DNA of 21,542 nt from a virus: IMG/VR virus record IMGVR_UViG_3300025439_000041, positions 1 to 21,542 of that record. One strand, 5' to 3'. How positions within the stretch are numbered: position 1 is the stretch's first letter; each line of letters begins with the position of its first letter. This document shows, in pieces, positions 3-17,667 of the stretch. Under the pieces are notes generated by a model that worked only from the letters and a program-made list of their open reading frames with translations, was not told the DNA's origin and searched no databases. The translations under genes were made by a program, and so were the position numbers.

Positions 3-3000
3 TACGGCGGCAAAAAAGGCAAGGCTCTATCAAAAGCCCTCATAAAAGACGGGTACGATGGAATTATCACGCTCGATGCTAAAGGGAATACCAGCGAGAT
101 TGTTGACCTTGTGCCGGATAAGCCCGCATCAAAGGAAGTCGCAAAAGCGGAAGAGCCCGGCAAAGAAGCCGCCCTCGTCGAGGATATCCGCTCTCTCGAA
201 AAGAAGCTGCAAAACCTTCGGGACAAACACGCCAGAGATGGCCGCAAATCAATGATCCCCCCGGCAATCCGCGCCGAGCAAATGAAGAACATCGAGAAGT
301 TGGCCGATCAGTTAGGGAAGAAGCAGGATGAACTTGAAGCGATGCACGAAGCTGAGAGGGCGACGGAAGCGGCCAAAGTAGAAGAAGCGGACGGTTGGAT
401 TGCTGATTACATAAAGGGCGACACCTACAAATGGCGCGGGATGGACGATCTGGATCGTGCATGGCAAAAATACGAGGAGATGCACCGATACCCAGATGTT
501 GATAAAGACCAGTTCGCCAAACTATTCAAAAACAGGATTACGGAATTGCCCGCCCGCGCCGACTACGAAGCCGCCAGGGTGGAGGATAAACCCGCCGAGG
601 TCGTTGACGAGGCTGTGCAGACGGCGAAGAAGGAAGGAACTCCGCTTAAGGAACAGAAAAAGTACCTGATTGCGAATATTGATGAGGCGATAAAGGAAGC
701 GCCGGAGTTTCACGAGGACATGGAGGGATTTAATAATCTCACCGATCACCGAGCGGCGAAACGGCAGGCTCACGATGATGCTCTTTCTGAAAAAGAAAAA
801 GCTCAAGGGGAAATTGAACTTAGCCAAAGGTGGATTGATGAGGGGGGAGTCGGCGAATACAAGTTTACCGACGTGGAAATAGCCAGAGAGAAACAAAAAC
901 TGGCAGATGCCAAGGCCCGGTATGAGAAGTCTCTCCCCGAGATTGAGCGCACGAAGAAAGAACTTGCGCCCGTAAACAAGGAAGTAACTGACCGGTTCAT
1001 GGTCACTATTGACGTTCCTGGCGACGGCACGTTCCAAGTGTATAACACGAAATATGCCCTCCAGGAGTTCAAAAAGCTCGTTGAAAAGTTATTCCCTGGT
1101 TCTGATAAGCTCCCCACCGTGGCGAAGGGGCTAGGACCTCTGCCGAAGGCAACGGGAGTAAAAGCCGAAGGCATTGAGAATGGGGTCACAGGGAAAGATG
1201 CTGATAATAATGTCTGGCATACCAACGGCGTACTGATTGTTAAAGGCAAGCCGACAGTCCCTTTCAAATCGGAGATGCCCCCTGATAAGGCGAAAGACCT
1301 GGACGAGCGCACCGCGCAAGTTGTCAAAATGTATACTTCCAACCCGAAGGAAGGGACTCCCGTAGCCAGTGCAAAGTTCTTAGCTATGGACAAAAACGGG
1401 AACATGGTGGCGCAAAGATCAGGGGATGATGTGTCCTTTCAAGGGATTTCGGACGAACCTATAAAAACAGGAAAAGACGAGGTTGCTTTTGTCCGGCTGA
1501 CTGGTGAAAACGGCGCAACTACGGATATGTCACAGAAATTTTATGTTTATGTCCGCCACCATTACCCTGATGCTGAAATCAGGTTCAAGGATGATAAGAA
1601 CCCGATTAACTTCGTGGAAGATGGCAAAATCGTTGCAGTGGTAATGCCTGTAAAATCCGAGGGCAAAGTCAATGAGGCGTTTGAATCGTTTGGGGTGAAG
1701 TCTGGCAAGGTCAAGGAAATCCCCCATGACGATCAGGTGAAATTCACCGGGGCGCTTGGTGCAGCAGCGGACACCCCGCAGCAACTCAGACCACCCGACG
1801 TTGACAGGGTGATGGCCTTCGCCCACGATAACGGTTATAACGTAGATGACCTTGCCGACTGGTTAATAAGCCACCAATTCACCCCTGATGATACTGGCCA
1901 TTCCATGTCGTCAAGAACTATCCAGATGATTAAGGATTGGCGACCGGACAATAGCGTTACCCTCGACTTCATGGGCCTACAACAAGCCTACGAATCATTA
2001 TCCAAAATCCCCCGAGCGGTAAAATCGGCCATCCCGCACCTTGAAACCCTCGGCAAGCAGGTATTCACCGAAGGGCGCACGAAGTACCAGGATTTCGTCA
2101 AGGGGATGAAAGAGAAACTCGGCGACCTCTGGCAGCGGTTTAAATCGCTGATGGAGGATGTTTGGGATAAGGTCAGGAGGACTATAAAAAATGGAAAAGA
2201 TCGACAAGGAACTGGCGAAGCACGGTTTTCAGTTGGAGAAGGGGGAGATAGTGGCAATGGCGAGTTACCCGTACATAGAGGGGACGTGCTTCACGATCTG
2301 GCTGGGGAGAGAGGACAGGATGAGGCACTTATTCAGGACCTCAACAGGTCACTACCCCCCGACCAGCAAAAAAGAATTACTTTCATTCTTGCAGATGAAA
2401 AGTCAAGAGACAATGGAGTTGCTCAAATTGGGGCGGCATTTGGCAAAAGGGTAATATTCTATAAGCAATCACCTGATGATACTTTCAACATCAATGGTAT
2501 CATATACGATAATAAAACCATTTTTATCCGAACCGATGCGGACCGTCCGCAACTTGTTGTATTAGGGCATGAATTGCTACATAGCATAGTGAAGGATGAC
2601 GCCATCAATGGGACAAACTTTTACAATGACTTCACTAAGGCATTAGACCCGTACACGGGATGGTTCGAACGGTCGCAATATGCCGGTAGAGTAGCACAAG
2701 CGTATATTGACCAAGGGATGAAAGCCCCAGTAAGAGAAACTCTTTTCGAGGAATTCTATGCTGACACAATCGGAGACAGATTTGCCGATAAGGGGTTCTG
2801 GAAAGAATTAGGACGCAAATCCCCATCAATCGTTCGAAGGGTCATGGAATACGTCAAAGGGTTGCTCGTTAAACTGAAAGGGTATTTTAAAACAACTGAC
2901 CATGCTTTTGACGACATATCAAAAGTCAACGATATCACATCTGATTTTCTGTCACGTTATGCTGAATATCAAGGGGTGAGGACCGGTCCAAAAAGCACTG

Positions 3001-6000
3001 ACGAAGTGCCGCTGCCTAAGTTTTTGATCGCCTTCCCCGCCCTGAAGGCCGAATTTCTCCGTAAGTATAACGGGGCATTGGACAAGGCAGAAGAGGCAGT
3101 CAAGAACCGGGACGAGGCCGGGGCGCGGAAGTGGCTGGCAGAGGCGGACGCGCTTGAGAGGTTATGGGAGGGGAAGGATGCTAAACCAGGAGGGGATGAG
3201 AAAGTGGATATGGAGGGTGGGCTGGCTCATAAGGACGAGGCGGAGATGGCAGGTGTTCTTCAACAAGGCGACACTATCAGCGCTGATGCTTCTCCCCGCA
3301 CCACCTCCATCAAAAACGCCGTTACCGAAGGAGAGCGGGCAGCCCGCGGACTCGGGCCGATAGAGGTAGAGTGGCGCCGGTCATTCCCTCACTCGTTCGA
3401 GGCGGCGAAACGGCGCGTTGACTCCGGCGAATTCGACCCGCGACTTGAAGCGAAGAAGTACGCCGAGAAGCCCCGCGCCCTCTCCACCGAAGAGGAAGCT
3501 GCTTTTGAATACGACCGGATGAGGCTTTACAATGACCACCACACCGTCATGGGGCTTATCGACAAGGCGGTGCAGTCCGGAGACCAGGCGGCTATTCTCG
3601 AAGGGCGTCAACGTCTGGCTGTGATCGAGGACGACATTTCCGATAACGATTACGTTGCTCGTCGGTCAGGGTACGAGGCCGGGCACTCCCTCAGTTTCCG
3701 CCGTATGCTGGTTAAACAGGATTACACCCTCGCTCGGTCCCTGCAACGAGCCCGAGCAGCCACCGGTGAGAAAGAAATCCCCGAGGATCTCCGCAAGCAG
3801 ATCGAAACGCTCACTCAGGAGTTGGAAGCGGCGGTTAAGAAATCTCAGGAGTACGAAGAGAAGCTCGCCAACATCGAGGCGCAGCGGGTAGTCAGCAAAC
3901 AAGAGCCGTCACCGGCCGCCAAGCGCAGGGAGAAGAGGGCAGTCACCCGGGAAGAGCTCGACTCGCAATTTAAATCCCTGGCGGGCAAGCTCCGGGCGTC
4001 GCTTTCCACGTTAAGCATGAACTTCAACCCCGAGCAGGCGGCTATTCTCGGCGAGATGATGAAAATCCGCGTTCAAGAGGGCATTACCAAGGTCGGGGAT
4101 ATCGTCGATGATATCTACGCCGAATTCGAGGGGATCCCCGACGTGTCAAAGCGGGACATCAGAGACGCTATTTCCAACTACGGCAAGTCCTACCAGATGA
4201 GCCAGGAGGAAATTCAGGTCGAGATGCGGGAAATCCGCCGGCAGATGCGGCTTGTGTCCGGGCTCGAAGATGCACAGGCCGGCCAAGCTCCTCTTCATTC
4301 CGGATTACAGCGTGACCCGGTATCCGACGAAGTGCGCGACCTGCAGAAGCAGATACACGAGGAGATGAAGAATCAGGGCATCAACCAGAAATCCTCAGAA
4401 GAGAGATGGAAAACTGCGCTCGATTCTGTCAAGACCCGACTCAAAAACGAGATTCACGACCTCGACGAGCAGATAGCGGCCGGCAAACGGAAGTATAAGG
4501 ATAAGACGACCCTTGAGTACGACGAGGAAGCGAAGCGCCTGAAATCGGTCAGGGACGAGAAAAAAGCCCTGCTTGACCAGATCGACGCGAAGCCGCCGAA
4601 AACCGAGCAGGAATTGAACGATATCGGCAACCGGATGGCCAAGGCCCGTTACCAGACCCGGCTGAAAGAACTGCAGCGGATGCTCGATACCGGCAATTAC
4701 GAGAAGCGGGCGCGGCGGGTCCTGAAACTGGACCCAGAGGCGCAACGACTCAAGGCAGAAGTGGAGAAAAAGAAAGAGGCGGTTGACACGGCAATCCGGC
4801 GGCAGGCACACGCAAACAGGACCCCCGTAGAGAAAGGGCTCGACTGGGCGGTTAAGTGGCGCCGGGCGGTTATTCTCTCCAGTATCCAGACGGTCGGCAA
4901 GCTCACGGCAGCGGCCACCATGCGGCAGATCACCACGCCGATTGAGGACTTGATAGAAGGCGGGTTGTCACTGTTCCCTGGCCTGTCCAGGATATCGGCC
5001 AAGGCCCCGCGGGAGGGTGGCGGGCTGAACGTCCGGGCGGAAGCGGCCGCTTTCTCTCAGTGGTTTAAGAAACAGACCTGGCAGGATATCAAGGACGTGG
5101 CCATAACCGGCCGCGGGGAATTGGACCGGCTGTACGGCAGCAAGAAAGACATGCTCCCCACGTCGGCACTTGATTTTTTCGGGCGGGTCCATGGGGCGTT
5201 GAAAGTCACGCCGAAGCGGGCGGAATTCTATCGTTCTCTCCAGAAGCGAACGGAATGGGCCATGCGGAACGGCTACGACATGAGCGACCCGGTGACCGTG
5301 GCAACGATCACAGCGGATGCCTATATTGACGCGAACCGCGCTATTTTCATGCAGGATAATTTTGTCATTAAGGGTTATCGAATATGGCTGAATTATCTCA
5401 AGACCAGGGGAGACTTGGGGAAAGCTACCGCAGCCGGGATGCAGATGATGACGCCGATTGTGAAGATCCCGACGAACTTCGTGGCGGAACTCACGTCTTA
5501 CGCTTTCGGCGCGGCGAAGGGCTCAGCCAGGGTGGCGTTCTCTAAGGGGATAGAAAACCTCACTCCCGAAGAGGCAGATTATGTCATGAGGGCGTTCAAG
5601 AAACAAGGGCTCGGCCTCGCCATGCTCGCCATAGGGTACTTCGCTTATGAAGCCATAGGTGGATATTACCAGCGGGGAGAGAAGCGCAAGGCGGGAGAGG
5701 TGAAGGAAGGGGAATTGCGCCTCGGCAAGTTCGACGTGCCGAAATTCGCACTCCATACCCCGGCGCTCGAGATTCTCCAACTTGGGGCAACTATCCACAG
5801 GGTTCAGGACCAGTATGCCGCCTCGGATGAGAAAAACGAGAAGAAGATCGACGAGGGCAAGAAGGAAGCCAAGGGCAGCGGGACCGGAGCCGGGATATTC
5901 GCCGGGGCGAAAGGGATAGCGGAACAGGTCCCGTTTTTCGAGCAGCCGGTAAGAATGGCCGAATCTACCCGGTCGGAAGCAAGCGCCCGGACCTGGGCGA

Positions 6001-8146: not shown

Positions 8147-8452
8147 TTATTCATAAGGGTCTTTGTACTGATTAAGTTGCTTAGCTTTTTTCTCTGCAAG
8201 GCATCCGGTAAAATTAGGCAACTTCCACGAAGCTGCATGGGCCTTGCGATATTTTTTGCTGGGGGATATTTGCTCCAGTAGATGTATTGCCTCGCCATAG
8301 CAGTCTACAGCATCTTGCATCCCTTGAGTGTAAACCTCATCTATTGTCAGATTTGCTTTGAGATATTTGATATCGTAATTCACACTCTCTGTTTCCCCTC
8401 CCCACGCCGCCCCCGCCATCAGAAGAAATGATATGATGATAAAGGTTTTCAT
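8147..8452 (-). CDS. Small exported protein with cleavable signal peptide
   Basis: This 101-aa protein has N-terminal MKTFIIISFLLMAGAAWG, a Sec-type signal with a likely cleavage near AWG/GETES. The mature part is helical and carries two Cys (in DCYG and TGCLA) that could form a disulfide in the periplasm. The ATG at 8452 is supported by a 4-nt ATGA overlap with the upstream lipoprotein gene and an AGGAGG 11 nt before it. The farther GTG at 8464 overlaps the ribosome site. No family is recognised. It is the last of five consecutive exported proteins. Confidence 0.75.
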   Translation of the reverse strand: MKTFIIISFLLMAGAAWGGETESVNYDIKYLKANLTIDEVYTQGMQDAVDCYGEAIHLLEQISPSKKYRKAHAASWKLPNFTGCLAEKKAKQLNQYKDPYE

Positions 8453-9476: not shown

Positions 9477-9866
9477 TCACTCCGTTTTGTTGAATACGAG
9501 ACTGCCTTGTTGGTTGACTACAAACGCCCCTCCTGACACTGATGGCAATACGCTCAAATCCGCTGTTGACTGGCTGGACTGGGGCATACAGGTCATGTAT
9601 TGAAGATTGCGAATTGTGTATTTCTCAGCATGTGGAGGACCAGAAAGAGATACCGGGTTGACCAGTGTTGCAAATGTCACCATGGCAGCGCCACATGACC
9701 GCAGATCTGGGTAGAGCTCTCCGTACCGCACATTGAATCCAGGCAGGTATGACCAGAAGTACCAGCCGGTTGCTTGTTGCGGTTGTGGCCTGCAATTCTC
9801 ATCCGTTGCAGCTGCCATCGTTGCGCCGAGTAACGTGATTGCCAATGCTACGATAATCTGTTTCAT
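9477..9866 (-). CDS. Small exported protein with signal peptide
   Basis: This 129-aa protein has N-terminal MKQIIVALAITLLGATMAAA, a Sec signal with cleavage before TDENC. The ATG at 9866 is preferred over the in-frame start at 9902, because AGGAGG lies 7 nt before it and it begins the signal peptide exactly. The mature part has three Cys and aromatic stretches (GWYFWSYLPGF). It is first in transcription order of the five exported proteins. No family is recognised. Confidence 0.75.
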   Translation of the reverse strand: MKQIIVALAITLLGATMAAATDENCRPQPQQATGWYFWSYLPGFNVRYGELYPDLRSCGAAMVTFATLVNPVSLSGPPHAEKYTIRNLQYMTCMPQSSQSTADLSVLPSVSGGAFVVNQQGSLVFNKTE

Positions 9867-9898
9867 AGTGTTCCCTCCTGTTAGTTGTATTATGGACT

Positions 9899-10192
9899 TC
9901 ATACCTCAAGCCGTTGTAGGATATCCGATAAGAAGCCGATTGTTCTGGCTTGCTGCCGTGCCAGTCGGTCAAGCCGCTCGGCCATCGGCGGCATTGCGGT
10001 GGCTATTGAGTCGCATTTGGCATTTTCGGGCTGTGGGTGGTCTGGCATCAGCACATGGTTGTTAAGGCGTTCGAAAAGATTCTCCACACGGCTTTGAATC
10101 TCCCCTTGGTTTTCTTCGATGGCTGCGATTTTGGTATGGATTACCCCTTCTCTCGGAACCGCTGCACAGTTTAAACCTTGACCTCCATTCAT
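9899..10192 (-). CDS. Hypothetical coiled-coil protein
   Basis: This 97-aa protein is soluble, with two predicted helical heptad regions (EENQGEIQSRVENLFERL and AERLDRLARQQ) flanking a loop. The ATG at 10192 has GGAG 7 nt upstream. The frame runs back to a GTG at 10222 inside the preceding gene, which is less likely. The function is unknown. Confidence 0.65.
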   Translation of the reverse strand: MNGGQGLNCAAVPREGVIHTKIAAIEENQGEIQSRVENLFERLNNHVLMPDHPQPENAKCDSIATAMPPMAERLDRLARQQARTIGFLSDILQRLEV

Positions 10193-11024: not shown

Positions 11025-11251
11025 CGTCTCGCTCTCCGTTTCCAGCTTGCGCCCATCACCTTATGCCGCCACGCCTGATCCTGTCTCGCCCGGATCACGA
11101 CTGAGCAGGTAACGGGACATTGCAGTCCATATACGCACCATGTTTCCTGGCAATCAGGGCGGTCTACAAAGCCATTCGCCTCGGCGGCACGACTCGATAG
11201 TTCGGACCGATTCAATCTTGCTTCTTGGCTGAAATAATTAAGTTTTGGCAT
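11021..11251 (-). CDS. Hypothetical small Cys-containing basic protein
   Basis: This 76-aa protein has four clustered Cys (CQETWCVYGLQCPVTC) that might bind metal, and a basic C-terminus (WKRRARR). The start has AGGA at a loose 10-nt spacing. The 3' end overlaps the next ATG by ATGA, the main evidence that it is real. The function is unknown. Confidence 0.55.
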   Translation of the reverse strand: MPKLNYFSQEARLNRSELSSRAAEANGFVDRPDCQETWCVYGLQCPVTCSVVIRARQDQAWRHKVMGASWKRRARR

Positions 11252-11308
11252 AGTAGAAAATTCCTGTTTTTGGATTACGCCTTGTTATAATCCGAATCGC
11301 GCAAAACC

Positions 11309-11509
11309 TCAGATTACCATCAGTTCACAAAATATTCCGCAATCGCCAGCTATCGGCGGTTCGTGTCGCCCCGCTTCCGGGTCCAGTTCATCCAAGTAAA
11401 TTCCTTTAAGACAGGTGTGTCGGGCTTTTCGTTCCATTTCCGCTCTGGCCTTAAATACGGCGGGAAAATCTCGCCGTATCTTGTTCCAGTATCCCATTCC
11501 GCCCTTCAC
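11309..11509 (-). CDS. C-terminal part of PAPS-reductase-like protein, after an in-frame TGA
   Basis: This stretch begins at the GTG directly after the TGA that ends the upstream ORF, in the same frame. It encodes KGGMGYWNKIRRDFP, then LDELDPEAGRHEPP, and ends with DCGIFCEL. These are the expected C-terminal motifs of phage PAPS-reductase-like proteins of about 240 aa, as I remember the family. The region therefore belongs to the upstream gene. It could be made by readthrough of the TGA, or separately from the ATG at 11497, which has AAGGG 4 nt upstream. DCGIFC supplies two more Cys that may act with the C-x-x-[TGA] motif. Confidence 0.7.
   Translation of the reverse strand: MKGGMGYWNKIRRDFPAVFKARAEMERKARHTCLKGIYLDELDPEAGRHEPPIAGDCGIFCELMVI
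11455..11479 (-). promoter_or_regulatory. Stable stem-loop downstream of the in-frame TGA
   Basis: On the - strand a perfect 8-bp stem (ATACGGCG/CGCCGTAT) closes a 9-nt loop (AGATTTTCC). It begins 31 nt after the TGA, and the apical loop starts 39 nt after it. This is slightly beyond the usual bacterial SECIS distance as I recall it (roughly 16-37 nt). The loop's second base is G, but a GGU loop motif is absent. It is a readthrough or SECIS candidate only. Confidence 0.35.
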
Positions 11510-12040
11510 TCACCCAACACAGTTATTGTTGCTGTACCCACGGTCATACATTGCAGGCCGCTTGATGCCACTGGCTTTTAAAACTTCATGGGCCATTTCC
11601 TTTGTCATGCGGCGTTCTATCAGTGGGCAAAGGTGTTCTTGTTCGGGCATACTTTCGGGCAACCTGTCCGCCCTGTGTTTCTCTTCGTAATCCATGCCCC
11701 ACACGTACCGCAGTTTCACATCCAACGGCTGCTCGTACTCCCATTGCTTCCGCACCGCTTTTTTCAACCGCCTTGTGCATTCGGCCCCACGTGGCCCGTT
11801 CACGTACATACCAGACGGGTGCATTTTATCGGCCATGATCGCGCCTTCAACGCTCTTGTACGGACTTTGCAGTATTTCCACCGGCTTCCCGAACCACCTT
11901 TCACAGTCCGCCACAAATCGGAGCGTGTCCTCTTCCTGGTCGTCAATGTGCGTGTAAATCACCCGATCAATCTGGGCTATCGCTAGTTTTGTCGCCACCG
12001 CCGATGAAACACCAGCGCTGAACCACGATACTGTCAACAT
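11510..12040 (-). CDS. PAPS-reductase-like (PP-loop) protein, interrupted by in-frame TGA
   Basis: The 176 codons up to the TGA contain a PP-loop-type nucleotide-binding motif (SWFSAGVSSAVATKLA, residues 5-20), YTHIDDQ, ECTRRLKK and IKRPAMYDRGYSNNNCVG. These match phage proteins annotated as phosphoadenosine phosphosulfate reductase-like. In my memory the family continues with CVKGGMGYWNK. Here TGA stands at that Cys, and the frame continues for 66 more codons, giving 243 residues in total. The start at 12040 follows a G-rich ribosome site and abuts the upstream stop (TAAATG). The family adenylates or reduces sulfur compounds; the phage role is unknown. Confidence 0.8.
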   Translation of the reverse strand: MLTVSWFSAGVSSAVATKLAIAQIDRVIYTHIDDQEEDTLRFVADCERWFGKPVEILQSPYKSVEGAIMADKMHPSGMYVNGPRGAECTRRLKKAVRKQWEYEQPLDVKLRYVWGMDYEEKHRADRLPESMPEQEHLCPLIERRMTKEMAHEVLKASGIKRPAMYDRGYSNNNCVG

Positions 12041-12145
12041 TTATGCCCCCCAAATTAGCAATATCCCGGCACAGATAATGAAACTGCCGATATAAAAAAC
12101 TTTTACAGCAAAAGGCAAAGGTTCTTCTGGCAATTCATGGCTCAT
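12041..12145 (-). CDS. 34-aa single-pass membrane protein
   Basis: The product is a short acidic N-terminus (MSHELPEEPLPF) followed by one hydrophobic helix (FYIGSFIICAGILLIWGA) reaching the C-terminus. AGGGGG lies 5 nt before the ATG, and its TAA is immediately followed by the ATG of the PAPS-reductase-like gene. It fills the gap between neighbours exactly, which argues that it is real. The function is unknown. Confidence 0.65.
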   Translation of the reverse strand: MSHELPEEPLPFAVKVFYIGSFIICAGILLIWGA

Positions 12146-12154
12146 ATAAACCCC

Positions 12155-12337
12155 CTATTTCTTTTTTATTTCATCACTTCCGCAGCTGGGGCAAGTTGCG
12201 ACTCCGCCATGGTGGCCCTGATAAAAATGCTGGCCGCATGTGAGGCAGAAATAATTTGTTTTTTCGCAATGATGCCCCGAAAAGGGGGGATTGCCGCAAA
12301 TAAAGCAGGGTTCTATAAAGTCTAATTCAATTGTCAT
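12155..12337 (-). CDS. Small zinc-ribbon protein
   Basis: This 60-aa protein has three knuckles: CFICG, CLTCG and CPSCG, with extra His/Cys between them (HHC, HHGG). It probably folds around one or two zinc ions. GGAGG lies 5 nt before the ATG, which overlaps the upstream TGA by 4 nt. It is likely a nucleic-acid or protein adaptor. The specific role is unknown. Confidence 0.7.
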   Translation of the reverse strand: MTIELDFIEPCFICGNPPFSGHHCEKTNYFCLTCGQHFYQGHHGGVATCPSCGSDEIKKK

Positions 12338-12498
12338 CTCCGCCTCCAAAAAAAGTCGTCAAACATCCCGGACTCTTCAATTTCCCGTTGCATCGCCGCG
12401 TAATTCCGCTGGTAAGCTCGACACTTAGGGCAACTGCACAGTTTTTGACCGGTTTCTTCATCCTGATCTAGGTTCCATGGTGCGCCGCAATCATCCAT
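12334..12498 (-). CDS. Small protein with CxCxxC motif
   Basis: This 54-aa product contains LCSCPKC (possible half zinc site), a helical middle and the tail FDDFFWRRR. The start at 12498 is chosen because GGAGG lies 8 nt upstream. An ATG at 12513 is also in frame, and the frame is open to 12723, but that part overlaps the next gene in an unlikely composition. Its TGA overlaps the downstream start (ATGA). Confidence 0.55.
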   Translation of the reverse strand: MDDCGAPWNLDQDEETGQKLCSCPKCRAYQRNYAAMQREIEESGMFDDFFWRRR

Positions 12499-12589
12499 AA
12501 TCATAACCTCCATGCGCTCCGCGCAGCGCGATTCAGATTCTAACCAAACGTAGCAGCGGGCGAAAAGCCCCGCCGCTGTACTCAAGCCG

Positions 12590-12877
12590 TTACTCCCCCA
12601 TAGCCTTAATCCGCTCGTTGGCTGCACGCAAGGCGTCGCGGGTGGTGCGCTTGCCGTTTGACCTTGCCGCTGCCACAATGCGCTCCCGGGACTCAGGAGA
12701 GGCGAACGTGTACCCTGCATCATGCGCGGGAAAATCGGGGCGGACGGTTACGCACCTGTACTGCATCCAGCCGCAAATCGGGCAATGCACCGCTTCAAGC
12801 GGATGAAAGAATAAAAACTCTCTGGCATGATATATCCGAGACTGACCGCAATGTGGACAAACTACCGCGTTACCCAT
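12590..12877 (-). CDS. Zinc-ribbon protein
   Basis: This 95-aa protein begins with CPHCGQ (7-12) and CPICGW (32-37), a four-Cys zinc ribbon, followed by a basic helical tail (RERIVAAARSNGKRTTRD). The ribosome site GAGGGAGG precedes the ATG, and the gene starts 11 nt after the RHH gene stop. It is likely a DNA- or RNA-binding accessory protein. The target is unknown. Confidence 0.7.
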   Translation of the reverse strand: MGNAVVCPHCGQSRIYHAREFLFFHPLEAVHCPICGWMQYRCVTVRPDFPAHDAGYTFASPESRERIVAAARSNGKRTTRDALRAANERIKAMGE

Positions 12878-13126: not shown

Positions 13127-14116
13127 TCAGATGGCCTCTTCAACTTCGTCGGGTTCGGTATCAAAATTGAAGCAATCCTGATCTTTCTGAATCTTACCGG
13201 CGGCGTCCACATTCTTAACTGATTGCCGGTAATAGGACGGCTTAAGTTCCGCGCCTATTCCTTTTCTCCCTAGCGACACCGCACCGAATACTTCCGAACC
13301 GACTCCCATGAATGGGGTCAACACCACTTCACCGGGATTTGTCCGTAACACTATCGCCCGTTCGATCACATCCAACTGGAGGGGATGCACATGCTTTTCA
13401 TCTTCCGAATCCCGAGCCGCTTCGAATGGTAACACCCGGTTAATCCGTATGTCATCCCAGAACGAAGAGGCATATTGTCTCCATATCCAATGGGAGAATC
13501 GATTCTCTGTTTGCTTTCCTTCCCATCCCCTGTATCCAAGGACATCTGAAGGGATTTGACGCTCTCCGGCATAGTTCAACATTCCGATAGGGTGGACAAC
13601 TGGTACTGGGTTTTCTCCCTTGTTGCGGAATATCAAAAGCTGATCCATCGAGGCAACTCCGCATAAGGTAGAATCCTGGACGAGCGTCATGTGAGCCAAG
13701 TTCTTTTGCATGGTACGGTTACGAACCGCAAGGGGCTCTTTCCATATTCCATGGCGGCAAATAAAATCCCATCCGTGCTTTTCATGGAGTCGGATAATAT
13801 CGCCAGGGAAGTCTGTCAGTCCGTCCCTTCCGCTGTTGCTCTTTGGGGTGTCCATGCAATGAACCGCCGTCATCCTGCCGGGCAACGTCAACCGGGTTAT
13901 TTCGCTCACCACAAATTCGTAATGTTCAAAGAATTGATCGTAACTATCGCAGTTGGACAGGTCGCGCTCATGGCTGGAATACTGGTATAAGCCGCAAAAG
14001 GGCGGGGAGTATAGGGAAAAATGGATTGATTTGTCTGGTATCCCGGCCATAACGGTTATACAATCGCCACAATACAATGCATATTTGTCGGTTATTTTTT
14101 GTTCCATGATTTCCAT
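13127..14116 (-). CDS. DNA methyltransferase, beta-class N4-cytosine/N6-adenine type
   Basis: This 329-aa protein has catalytic motif IV SPPF at residues 37-40 near the N-terminus. The AdoMet motif I FMGVGSE lies at 269-275 near the C-terminus, followed by GRKGIGAELKPSYY. This IV-then-I order defines beta-class amino-methyltransferases; SPP[YF] favours N4-cytosine, though N6-adenine is possible. No cognate restriction gene is adjacent, so it probably protects phage DNA from host restriction. The start has AGGAG 5 nt upstream. Confidence 0.85.
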   Translation of the reverse strand: MEIMEQKITDKYALYCGDCITVMAGIPDKSIHFSLYSPPFCGLYQYSSHERDLSNCDSYDQFFEHYEFVVSEITRLTLPGRMTAVHCMDTPKSNSGRDGLTDFPGDIIRLHEKHGWDFICRHGIWKEPLAVRNRTMQKNLAHMTLVQDSTLCGVASMDQLLIFRNKGENPVPVVHPIGMLNYAGERQIPSDVLGYRGWEGKQTENRFSHWIWRQYASSFWDDIRINRVLPFEAARDSEDEKHVHPLQLDVIERAIVLRTNPGEVVLTPFMGVGSEVFGAVSLGRKGIGAELKPSYYRQSVKNVDAAGKIQKDQDCFNFDTEPDEVEEAI

Positions 14117-14124
14117 GTTGGCTC

Positions 14125-14634
14125 CTAATTTATAAGATATATATCTTTCCCTTTTGGCTCTTTATCGTGGCATTTTTTACATAAGGTCATCCCGTTGTCT
14201 ACATTGAACCTGACTTCGGGAAATGTTGCGAACGGTTTTATATGGTGGGCTTCTATTCTTAAGTAGTTATTTGATTTACTTCGATTACCGCAAGAACGGC
14301 AAGTATAATCATCTCGTTCAAAAACCTCTTTGCGCCATACCGACATAGCCTTGCTTCCTCGGATAGATTTATGGATGGAGGTCTTCCCCCCCCCCCAATT
14401 TGGGTTTTCTGACCCATTATATACTCTTCGGTTACTTAAATCTTTTGTCTTCCCTCTTTGATAATCGTAATAGCAAGGTTTAGAACAGAATCGGTTGTTC
14501 CCTTGTTTGATTTCGTAAGGTTTCCTCCAAAATTGGGTTGCGCATATTTCACATTTAAAATATTCACCCCTTCTTTTGGACTGGCTTCTTTTATGTATAT
14601 GTTCTGCTGTTTGTTTTCTCATAAGGGATATCAT
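14125..14634 (-). CDS. HNH endonuclease with zinc ribbon (free-standing homing type)
   Basis: This 169-aa protein has an N-terminal zinc ribbon (CEIC...NRFCSKPCYYDY), then NPNWGGG. The HNH domain follows: VFERDDYTCRSCG, EAHHIKPF, and DNGMTLCKKCH with the catalytic HH and metal Cys pairs. It likely nicks or cuts DNA as a mobile homing endonuclease. No strong ribosome site precedes either the ATG at 14634 or the one at 14622. A G11 tract interrupts the coding sequence at the NWGGG position. Confidence 0.8.
   Translation of the reverse strand: MISLMRKQTAEHIHKRSQSKRRGEYFKCEICATQFWRKPYEIKQGNNRFCSKPCYYDYQRGKTKDLSNRRVYNGSENPNWGGGKTSIHKSIRGSKAMSVWRKEVFERDDYTCRSCGNRSKSNNYLRIEAHHIKPFATFPEVRFNVDNGMTLCKKCHDKEPKGKDIYLIN
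14386..14396. repeat. Homopolymer C11 (G11 on coding strand) in HNH gene
   Basis: Eleven consecutive C on the + strand encode the GGG of NWGGGK on the - strand. Changing its length by one base would frameshift the HNH gene. It could be a slippage or phase-variation site, or an assembly-error hotspot. Confidence 0.8.
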
Positions 14635-14671
14635 AAACTATTATAAAGGTGATTGCAACAACAATATCCAT
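14591..14671 (-). CDS. Possible 26-aa peptide coupled to the helicase stop
   Basis: The ATG overlaps the helicase stop (TAATG) and opens MDIVVAITFIIVYDIPYEK, a short hydrophobic peptide. It overlaps the first 44 nt of the HNH gene in another frame. It may be a leader that feeds ribosomes to the HNH gene, or the start of an older gene broken by HNH insertion. There is little support beyond the coupling. Confidence 0.25.
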   Translation of the reverse strand: MDIVVAITFIIVYDIPYEKTNSRTYT

Positions 14672-16859: not shown

Positions 16860-17174
16860 TTAGCCAATTAATCTGCCCGTATTGGTTTCAACTTGGCGGC
16901 ATCGGTCATCATAAAGCATCGTCATGCCAAAGTCTTTGCAACAGGTTATATCGAGCATCTCTAAACCATATTTTGCCAGCCATTCACGGACATAAGGAAT
17001 TTGACTTGGTTCGTAAGCTCGGGCCGTGAATATTTTCACTTCATACCCGTTGGAGATTAAAGCCCTTACAAATTTGAGCATTTTGGGGATAGCCTCCCCA
17101 ATTTGGTCCGCGCCTTTCCATCCTTCATAATGAGCAAGGGTGCCGTCAAGATCAACCCCTATCCATTTTTTCAT
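16860..17174 (-). CDS. HAD-superfamily phosphatase-like protein
   Basis: This 104-aa protein has the HAD motifs in order: DLDGTLA (8-14) with both Asp, FTAR (49-52), a Lys in CCKD, and YDDR near residue 89. It is small and capless, like phage nucleotide or polynucleotide phosphatases. The ATG overlaps the stop of the kinase gene (ATGA) and has AGGAG 8 nt upstream. The pair matches the kinase and phosphatase halves of T4 polynucleotide kinase; the 3'-phosphatase role is inferred from context. Confidence 0.75.
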   Translation of the reverse strand: MKKWIGVDLDGTLAHYEGWKGADQIGEAIPKMLKFVRALISNGYEVKIFTARAYEPSQIPYVREWLAKYGLEMLDITCCKDFGMTMLYDDRCRQVETNTGRLIG

Positions 17175-17620
17175 AATTCTTGCTCCTTTGAATCGCAGTA
17201 GGGCTCTTCTTCCCAGACTCGCACCTCTTCATCCATAGTATGCTCAAACTGGGAATCCATCTTCTCAATTATAGGGAGGATATAATCATCGTTTGTAGCT
17301 ATTGCCCGCTCTTTACAAACATCAACGGAGGTCAAAACCGGATAGAAAGTTCGTATCCATCGCTTATCCACCCACTCTTCCCGGCGTTTACCTGTGGTAT
17401 TGGTTGCATCGAGTATGACAAAATTGTGTCCGGCTTCGAAAAGTGCAGCGACCATATACTTTGCAATAGCCCACACCATCGGTTCAGCTACCCCGCAAAA
17501 CCTTTGCCCGTGGAGAACAAGACGGATTGAATCAGGGTTGACTATCGGATGCCCCAATGTTTTAGCAATGGTGCTTTTCCCAGAGCGCGGCAGACCTACC
17601 ATCATAATTAAATTCTTCAT
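17171..17620 (-). CDS. Polynucleotide kinase-like P-loop kinase
   Basis: This 149-aa protein has Walker A GLPRSGKST (9-17). NPDSIRLVLHG follows, typical of T4-Pnk/zeta-toxin-like kinases, then VILDATNTTGKRREEW with the catalytic-type D-A-T-N-T and lid residues. It likely phosphorylates a 5'-OH end of DNA or RNA, or a nucleotide. It is coupled by ATGA to the HAD phosphatase gene. The start has AAGGAG nearby upstream. Confidence 0.75.
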   Translation of the reverse strand: MKNLIMMVGLPRSGKSTIAKTLGHPIVNPDSIRLVLHGQRFCGVAEPMVWAIAKYMVAALFEAGHNFVILDATNTTGKRREEWVDKRWIRTFYPVLTSVDVCKERAIATNDDYILPIIEKMDSQFEHTMDEEVRVWEEEPYCDSKEQEL

Positions 17621-17640
17621 TCCATTCTCCTTTCAGTTTA

Positions 17641-17663
17641 CTCCCCTCACCGCATCAGGGGAG
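17641..17663. other. Intercistronic hairpin
   Basis: A 7-bp perfect inverted repeat (CTCCCCT/AGGGGAG, 9-nt loop) lies in the gap between the small zinc protein gene and the kinase gene. No T tract follows on the - strand, so it is more likely an mRNA-processing or stability element than a terminator. Confidence 0.4.
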
Positions 17664-17667
17664 GCGT

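Follow-up and report, generated by a model that had tools for sequence, protein, structure and literature searches.

The interrupted gene and its family

The window, by which we mean the whole stretch of DNA analysed here, makes up the entire IMG/VR virus record: a single contig, 21,542 bases long. On its minus strand, an ATG at 12040 opens an ORF that is closed after 176 aa by a TGA at 11512-11510, and the same frame runs past this codon to a second TGA at 11311-11309, giving 243 codons in total (Table 1). The read-through protein matched the phrog_424 profile over its full length (E 3e-43, residues 2-244) and Pfam PF01507 just above the cut-off, and its confidently predicted structure (mean pLDDT 92.8) was closest to PAPS/APS reductases, with Z up to 12.7 in a structure comparison against the PDB (Foldseek, VIA-align). 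These results agree with a preliminary description of the locus, which had reported a phage PAPS-reductase-like protein of 243 residues whose ORF stops at the TGA and continues in frame. The ATG at 11497 that it proposed as the start of the downstream piece is possible, and so is the GTG right after the TGA (66 aa).

Table 1. Positions of the features discussed in the text (coordinates of the window).
Feature	Position	Strand	Remarks
PAPS-reductase-like cargo gene (phrog_424)	11309..12040	-	243 codons if the codon-177 TGA is read through
Upstream ORF	11510..12040	-	176 aa, expected product under normal termination
In-frame TGA	11510..11512	-	column is Cys in 229/229 relatives
Downstream continuation	11309..11509	-	66 codons, possible GTG start directly after the TGA
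8-bp hairpin	11455..11479	-	9-nt loop that starts 38 nt from the TGA, beyond the bSECIS range
Variable cargo slot content	11175..12579		missing and replaced in five spanning siblings
attC-like site, slot edge	12538..12595	+	R'' TTCTAAC, L'' with one extra-helical base, L', R' GTTACTC

The TGA falls at codon 177, on the second Cys of the motif N-N-N-C-x-x-C-V-K-G-G-M-G-Y-W. Cys occupies this column in all of the best 80 viral relatives (TGT in 42, TGC in 38) and at all 229 loci aligned (190 distinct proteins; TGT in 117, TGC in 112), of which 119 were obtained by a motif scan demanding TGY, the unbiased share being the 110 loci from the protein search. The preliminary description had expected a Cys here, and the alignment with homologues shows that it was right. 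It had also suggested looking for other copies with a conserved TGA, and these were not found: a degenerate motif with TGA at the column gave 0 matches in viral_contigs (2.9 million) and genome_contigs (84,980 prokaryote species), records very near the window possibly lying outside the scope of the scan. The same motif with TGY, used as a control, matched at least 120 viral stretches, and the motif with TGA does recover the window's own site. The motif scan returned neither TAA nor TAG at the codon 177 column in viral records, nor TGA at the partner Cys 174, and no split at the position of the TGA occurs in the relatives examined.

The window gene resembles the phage PAPS-reductase-like proteins of phrog_424 and PF01507 in its full-length read-through match and in all invariant motifs save the TGA column, whereas all relatives examined have a Cys there. 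C88, C174, and C234, which are invariant in phrog_424, are present in the window gene, and C177 is the TGA; by analogy with APS reductases, these four residues may form a metal or Fe-S site. The part 3' of the TGA retains 25 of 26 highly conserved columns. The ratio of conservation before versus after the TGA (1.13 in the window, third lowest of 65, with a mean of 1.24) is too weak to use.

The nearest solved protein by sequence is PptA (PDB 21fy chain C; E 1e-44), which has CVGCVKGGMGYWNKIR in common with the window protein but a Cys at the TGA column. It was not among the matches listed in the Foldseek/VIA-align comparison, possibly because it is newer than the structure library, and a literature search returned nothing relevant on its function. 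The sulfur enzymes of SspD/DndC-type DNA phosphorothioation share the PAPS-reductase-like fold, and there was a weak match to the SspD profile (E 9e-9); however, we recognised no partner genes of the ssp, dnd, or BREX type among those of the window, and we do not claim membership of these systems.

The sequence downstream of the TGA

Selenocysteine was the headline option of the preliminary description. Host Sec machinery would read the UGA through an atypical SECIS whose loop starts 38 nt downstream, and the CxxC motif would become CxxU. The position of the TGA, exactly on an invariant Cys, and the presence of a hairpin downstream are indeed features of bacterial selenoproteins that have Cys homologues. 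The perfect 8-bp stem that had been reported at 11455-11479 was found again, at nt 34-58 from the U of UGA, and its energy was the strongest among 81 family members at the same place. The segment comprising nt 21-70 folds at -20.6 kcal/mol, which ranks it in the top 0.5% by strength among in-frame positions of window genes. For the initial 40 nt, counted from the TGA, the folding energy is -0.6 kcal/mol, and 97% of in-frame positions fold more strongly than this.

In the bSECIS model, the apical loop has 3-9 nt, one of its first two nucleotides is a G, in most cases with a G or U next to it on the 3' side, the UGA-loop distance is 16-37 nt, and the MFE is <= -7.5 kcal/mol (PMC13188914); these limits fit most, not all, bSECIS elements. 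Applied mechanically after the TGA, as a bacterial SECIS search of the kind suggested earlier, the rules yielded no hairpin inside the published limits, the nearest loop lying at 38 nt, and the earlier remark that the hairpin is slightly too distant was correct. The accompanying remark that the loop lacks GGU stands insofar as neither GG nor GU begins the loop, and has to be amended insofar as one reading of the loop, AGAUUUUCC, has a G in the second position, followed by A and not by G or U. Spacing and loop sequence therefore place the hairpin outside the model that describes known bacterial selenoproteins, and both count against selenocysteine. When the spacing was relaxed to 40 nt, the hairpin, with the same reading of its loop, passed the remaining rules, a point in favour of selenocysteine.

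Because many in-frame codons and Cys relatives satisfy the bSECIS rules, namely 181 of 695 in-frame window codons (26%) and 9 of 66 Cys relatives at the same codon under the strict form, agreement with these rules is weak evidence. Part of the hairpin also occurs in Cys relatives such as L005, and coding constraint therefore accounts for some of it; the remainder of its strength is unexplained and is the one unexplained point favouring selenocysteine. An Rfam scan at the site found no SECIS and no credible RNA of any kind.

Half of the listed ORFs, 17 of 34 with both pieces of the interrupted gene included, end in TGA, and the second TGA terminates the interrupted gene's own frame. Reassignment of TGA, which had been judged unlikely before, is rejected, since TGA is a regular stop in the window. 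No tRNA of any kind was detected in the window or in a 53.9-kb sibling phage, and no tRNA-Sec in four records (the window record and three siblings), a negative answer, for these phage records, to the tRNA-Sec part of the selA/selB/selC check that had been proposed. No phage selenoprotein turned up in a search of the literature.

The cargo slot and its attC-like edge

Sibling phages were found via other window genes (L112, L113/L122, L121, L123-L128) and are mostly 97-99% identical to the window over shared stretches; no isolated phage matched the whole window. The accession numbers of their metagenomes suggest that the siblings are of peat origin. The PAPS-reductase-like gene is missing from all five siblings that span the slot (L122, L124, L125, L126, and L127). 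In L122 and L126, ~245 bp stand in place of the window's segment 11175-12579, and in L124, L125, and L127 the place is taken by short cargo of other kinds. Because sibling phages exist without the gene, it is dispensable.

The right edge of the slot carries the only match of an attC-structure scan in the 21.5 kb, comparable matches being obtained in 8 of 200 shuffles; the scan also detects the attC of aadA7, a site that is confirmed in plasmids. R'' and R' cores, paired L'' and L', and an extra-helical base, by which the attC of an integron cassette is recognised, are all found at 12538-12595. At this edge, the sequence common to the window and its siblings starts at CGTTA(C/T), and to the left of CGTTA there are four different attC-like sequences, one in the window, one in L122/L126, one in L124/L125/L128/L121, and one in L127, with differing cargo. 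We read these sibling junctions as cargo exchange at an integron-type site.

Functional attC sites are known in phages (PMC9892861), and the attC sites and cassettes described there are resembled by the site that borders the slot and by the differing attC-like sequences at the sibling junction. Unlike those, the window has a single site, the scan having found no second (left-hand) attC in it, and its genes are opposed to the orientation that the extra-helical base implies for the site; nor was an integron integrase recognised in the general annotation of the window. It is likely that the slot is an integron cassette, and this interpretation is incomplete because there is no left-hand attC in the window and the site is oriented against the genes. 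AttC-like sites also occur beside relatives of the gene: in L012, sites at 468-521 and 5187-5234 (minus strand) flank a PAPS-like relative, and in L020 a site at 1646-1749 lies near a PAPS-like gene, in both cases running opposite to the gene, like the site in the window.

The window differs from its siblings at other places too. An HNH-endonuclease-like ORF (14125-14634), probably a mobile endonuclease gene, lies between helicase and methylase genes in a segment (14111-14669) that is cleanly missing from L124 and L126. A two-gene module at 16863-17667, absent or replaced in siblings, consists of a kinase-like (17171-17620) and a phosphatase-like gene (16860-17174), both of which match polynucleotide kinase profiles. 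At 111-3045, the 5' half of a 2071-aa ORF is ~78% identical to the sibling protein and the remainder 99.9%, and this step in identity suggests a recombination boundary inside a virion-type gene.

Explanations for the in-frame TGA

Judging from the family alignment and the sibling phages, the TGA is probably a recent nonsense allele in a dispensable PAPS-reductase-like cargo gene; the weights that we attach to this and the following explanations are judgements, not computed probabilities. The invariant Cys codon would have become TGA by a recent nonsense mutation, in a gene sitting in a hypervariable cargo slot, and translation would end at codon 177 as at the other TGA stops of the genome. The product would be a 176-aa protein without the second Cys of CxxC and without the C-terminal Cys cluster, and because of these losses it would most likely be inactive. 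The frame past the TGA would still look intact because the event is recent. The preliminary description had listed a nonsense change as an alternative; a nonsense change or an artefact is now favoured, as no relative with TGA was found in the collections searched, the gene is absent in siblings, and other in-frame stops occur in the family.

The window gene is the sole TGA-bearing member in the collections searched (0 matches vs at least 120 TGY stretches), which supports a nonsense mutation, as do the absence of the gene from siblings, the normal use of TGA as a stop, the unstructured 40 nt after it, and the stops in relatives. Among the latter, L109 (in-frame TAG at residue 147) and L251 (in-frame TAA at residue 233) are clear cases, the frame of L237 is broken, and none of the three is hit at a Cys; the alignment of L111 begins only at residue 142, and its stop possibly falls outside the gene. 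Broken copies make up roughly 1-2% of the relatives read. Against a nonsense mutation, the 3' part is without decay (25/26 columns), the downstream hairpin is the strongest in the family, and random nonsense strikes a conserved Cys only about once in 20. The coincidence of the TGA with a Cys is nevertheless modest, because, of the 104 single-base changes able to create a stop in this gene, 5 (about 5%) strike one of its five conserved Cys codons.

It is also conceivable, although unlikely, that the virus has a Cys codon and that a single wrong base in the consensus or assembly gave rise to the TGA. This codon differs from TGT or TGC by one base, no second copy of the allele was found, and the 3' part is fully family-like, as that of an intact gene would be. 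The contig is otherwise clean, however: sibling proteins align to nearly all of the window with no stop and no broken frame, and the 9,532 coding bases for which two or more siblings are available contain 66 differences unique to the window, which look like real variation because 45 of them are synonymous. Most of the non-synonymous ones cluster at 9773-9902. For these reasons, we rank a one-base error as less likely than a recent nonsense allele, and take the TGA base to be presumably real. One of the window-unique differences, at 8148, is a nonsense change (TAA) that cuts a small ORF of 113 residues back to 105.

We regard it as improbable that some active protein is made, either from a functional two-piece gene with a restart at the GTG or by low-level read-through with a near-cognate tRNA. 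The GTG directly after the TGA gives a geometry that can permit reinitiation, and the 66-codon 3' part is well conserved; both routes would nonetheless lose a Cys that is invariant in relatives, no relative examined is split at this point, and no clear Shine-Dalgarno sequence precedes the GTG. Least probable of all is selenocysteine, for which the exact position of the TGA and the very strong hairpin (-20.6 kcal/mol) speak, and which is opposed by the loop outside the published limits (PMC13188914), the permissiveness of the bSECIS rules, and the lack of a second Sec member among 2.9 million contigs of viruses and 84,980 species of prokaryotes, of a tRNA-Sec on the record or three siblings, of an Rfam SECIS at the site, and of any phage selenoprotein in the literature search.

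A phage-borne selenoprotein, if true, would be a surprise, and a TGA at a Cys column is the type of signal that suggests one. In the present case, selenocysteine and a nonsense allele are told apart by a family-wide search for a second TGA, by the score of the hairpin compared with random codons and Cys homologues, and by whether sibling phages retain the gene. The locus is, in addition, a natural case of a cargo slot in a phage, bordered by attC-like sites, whose contents differ among nearly identical phages.
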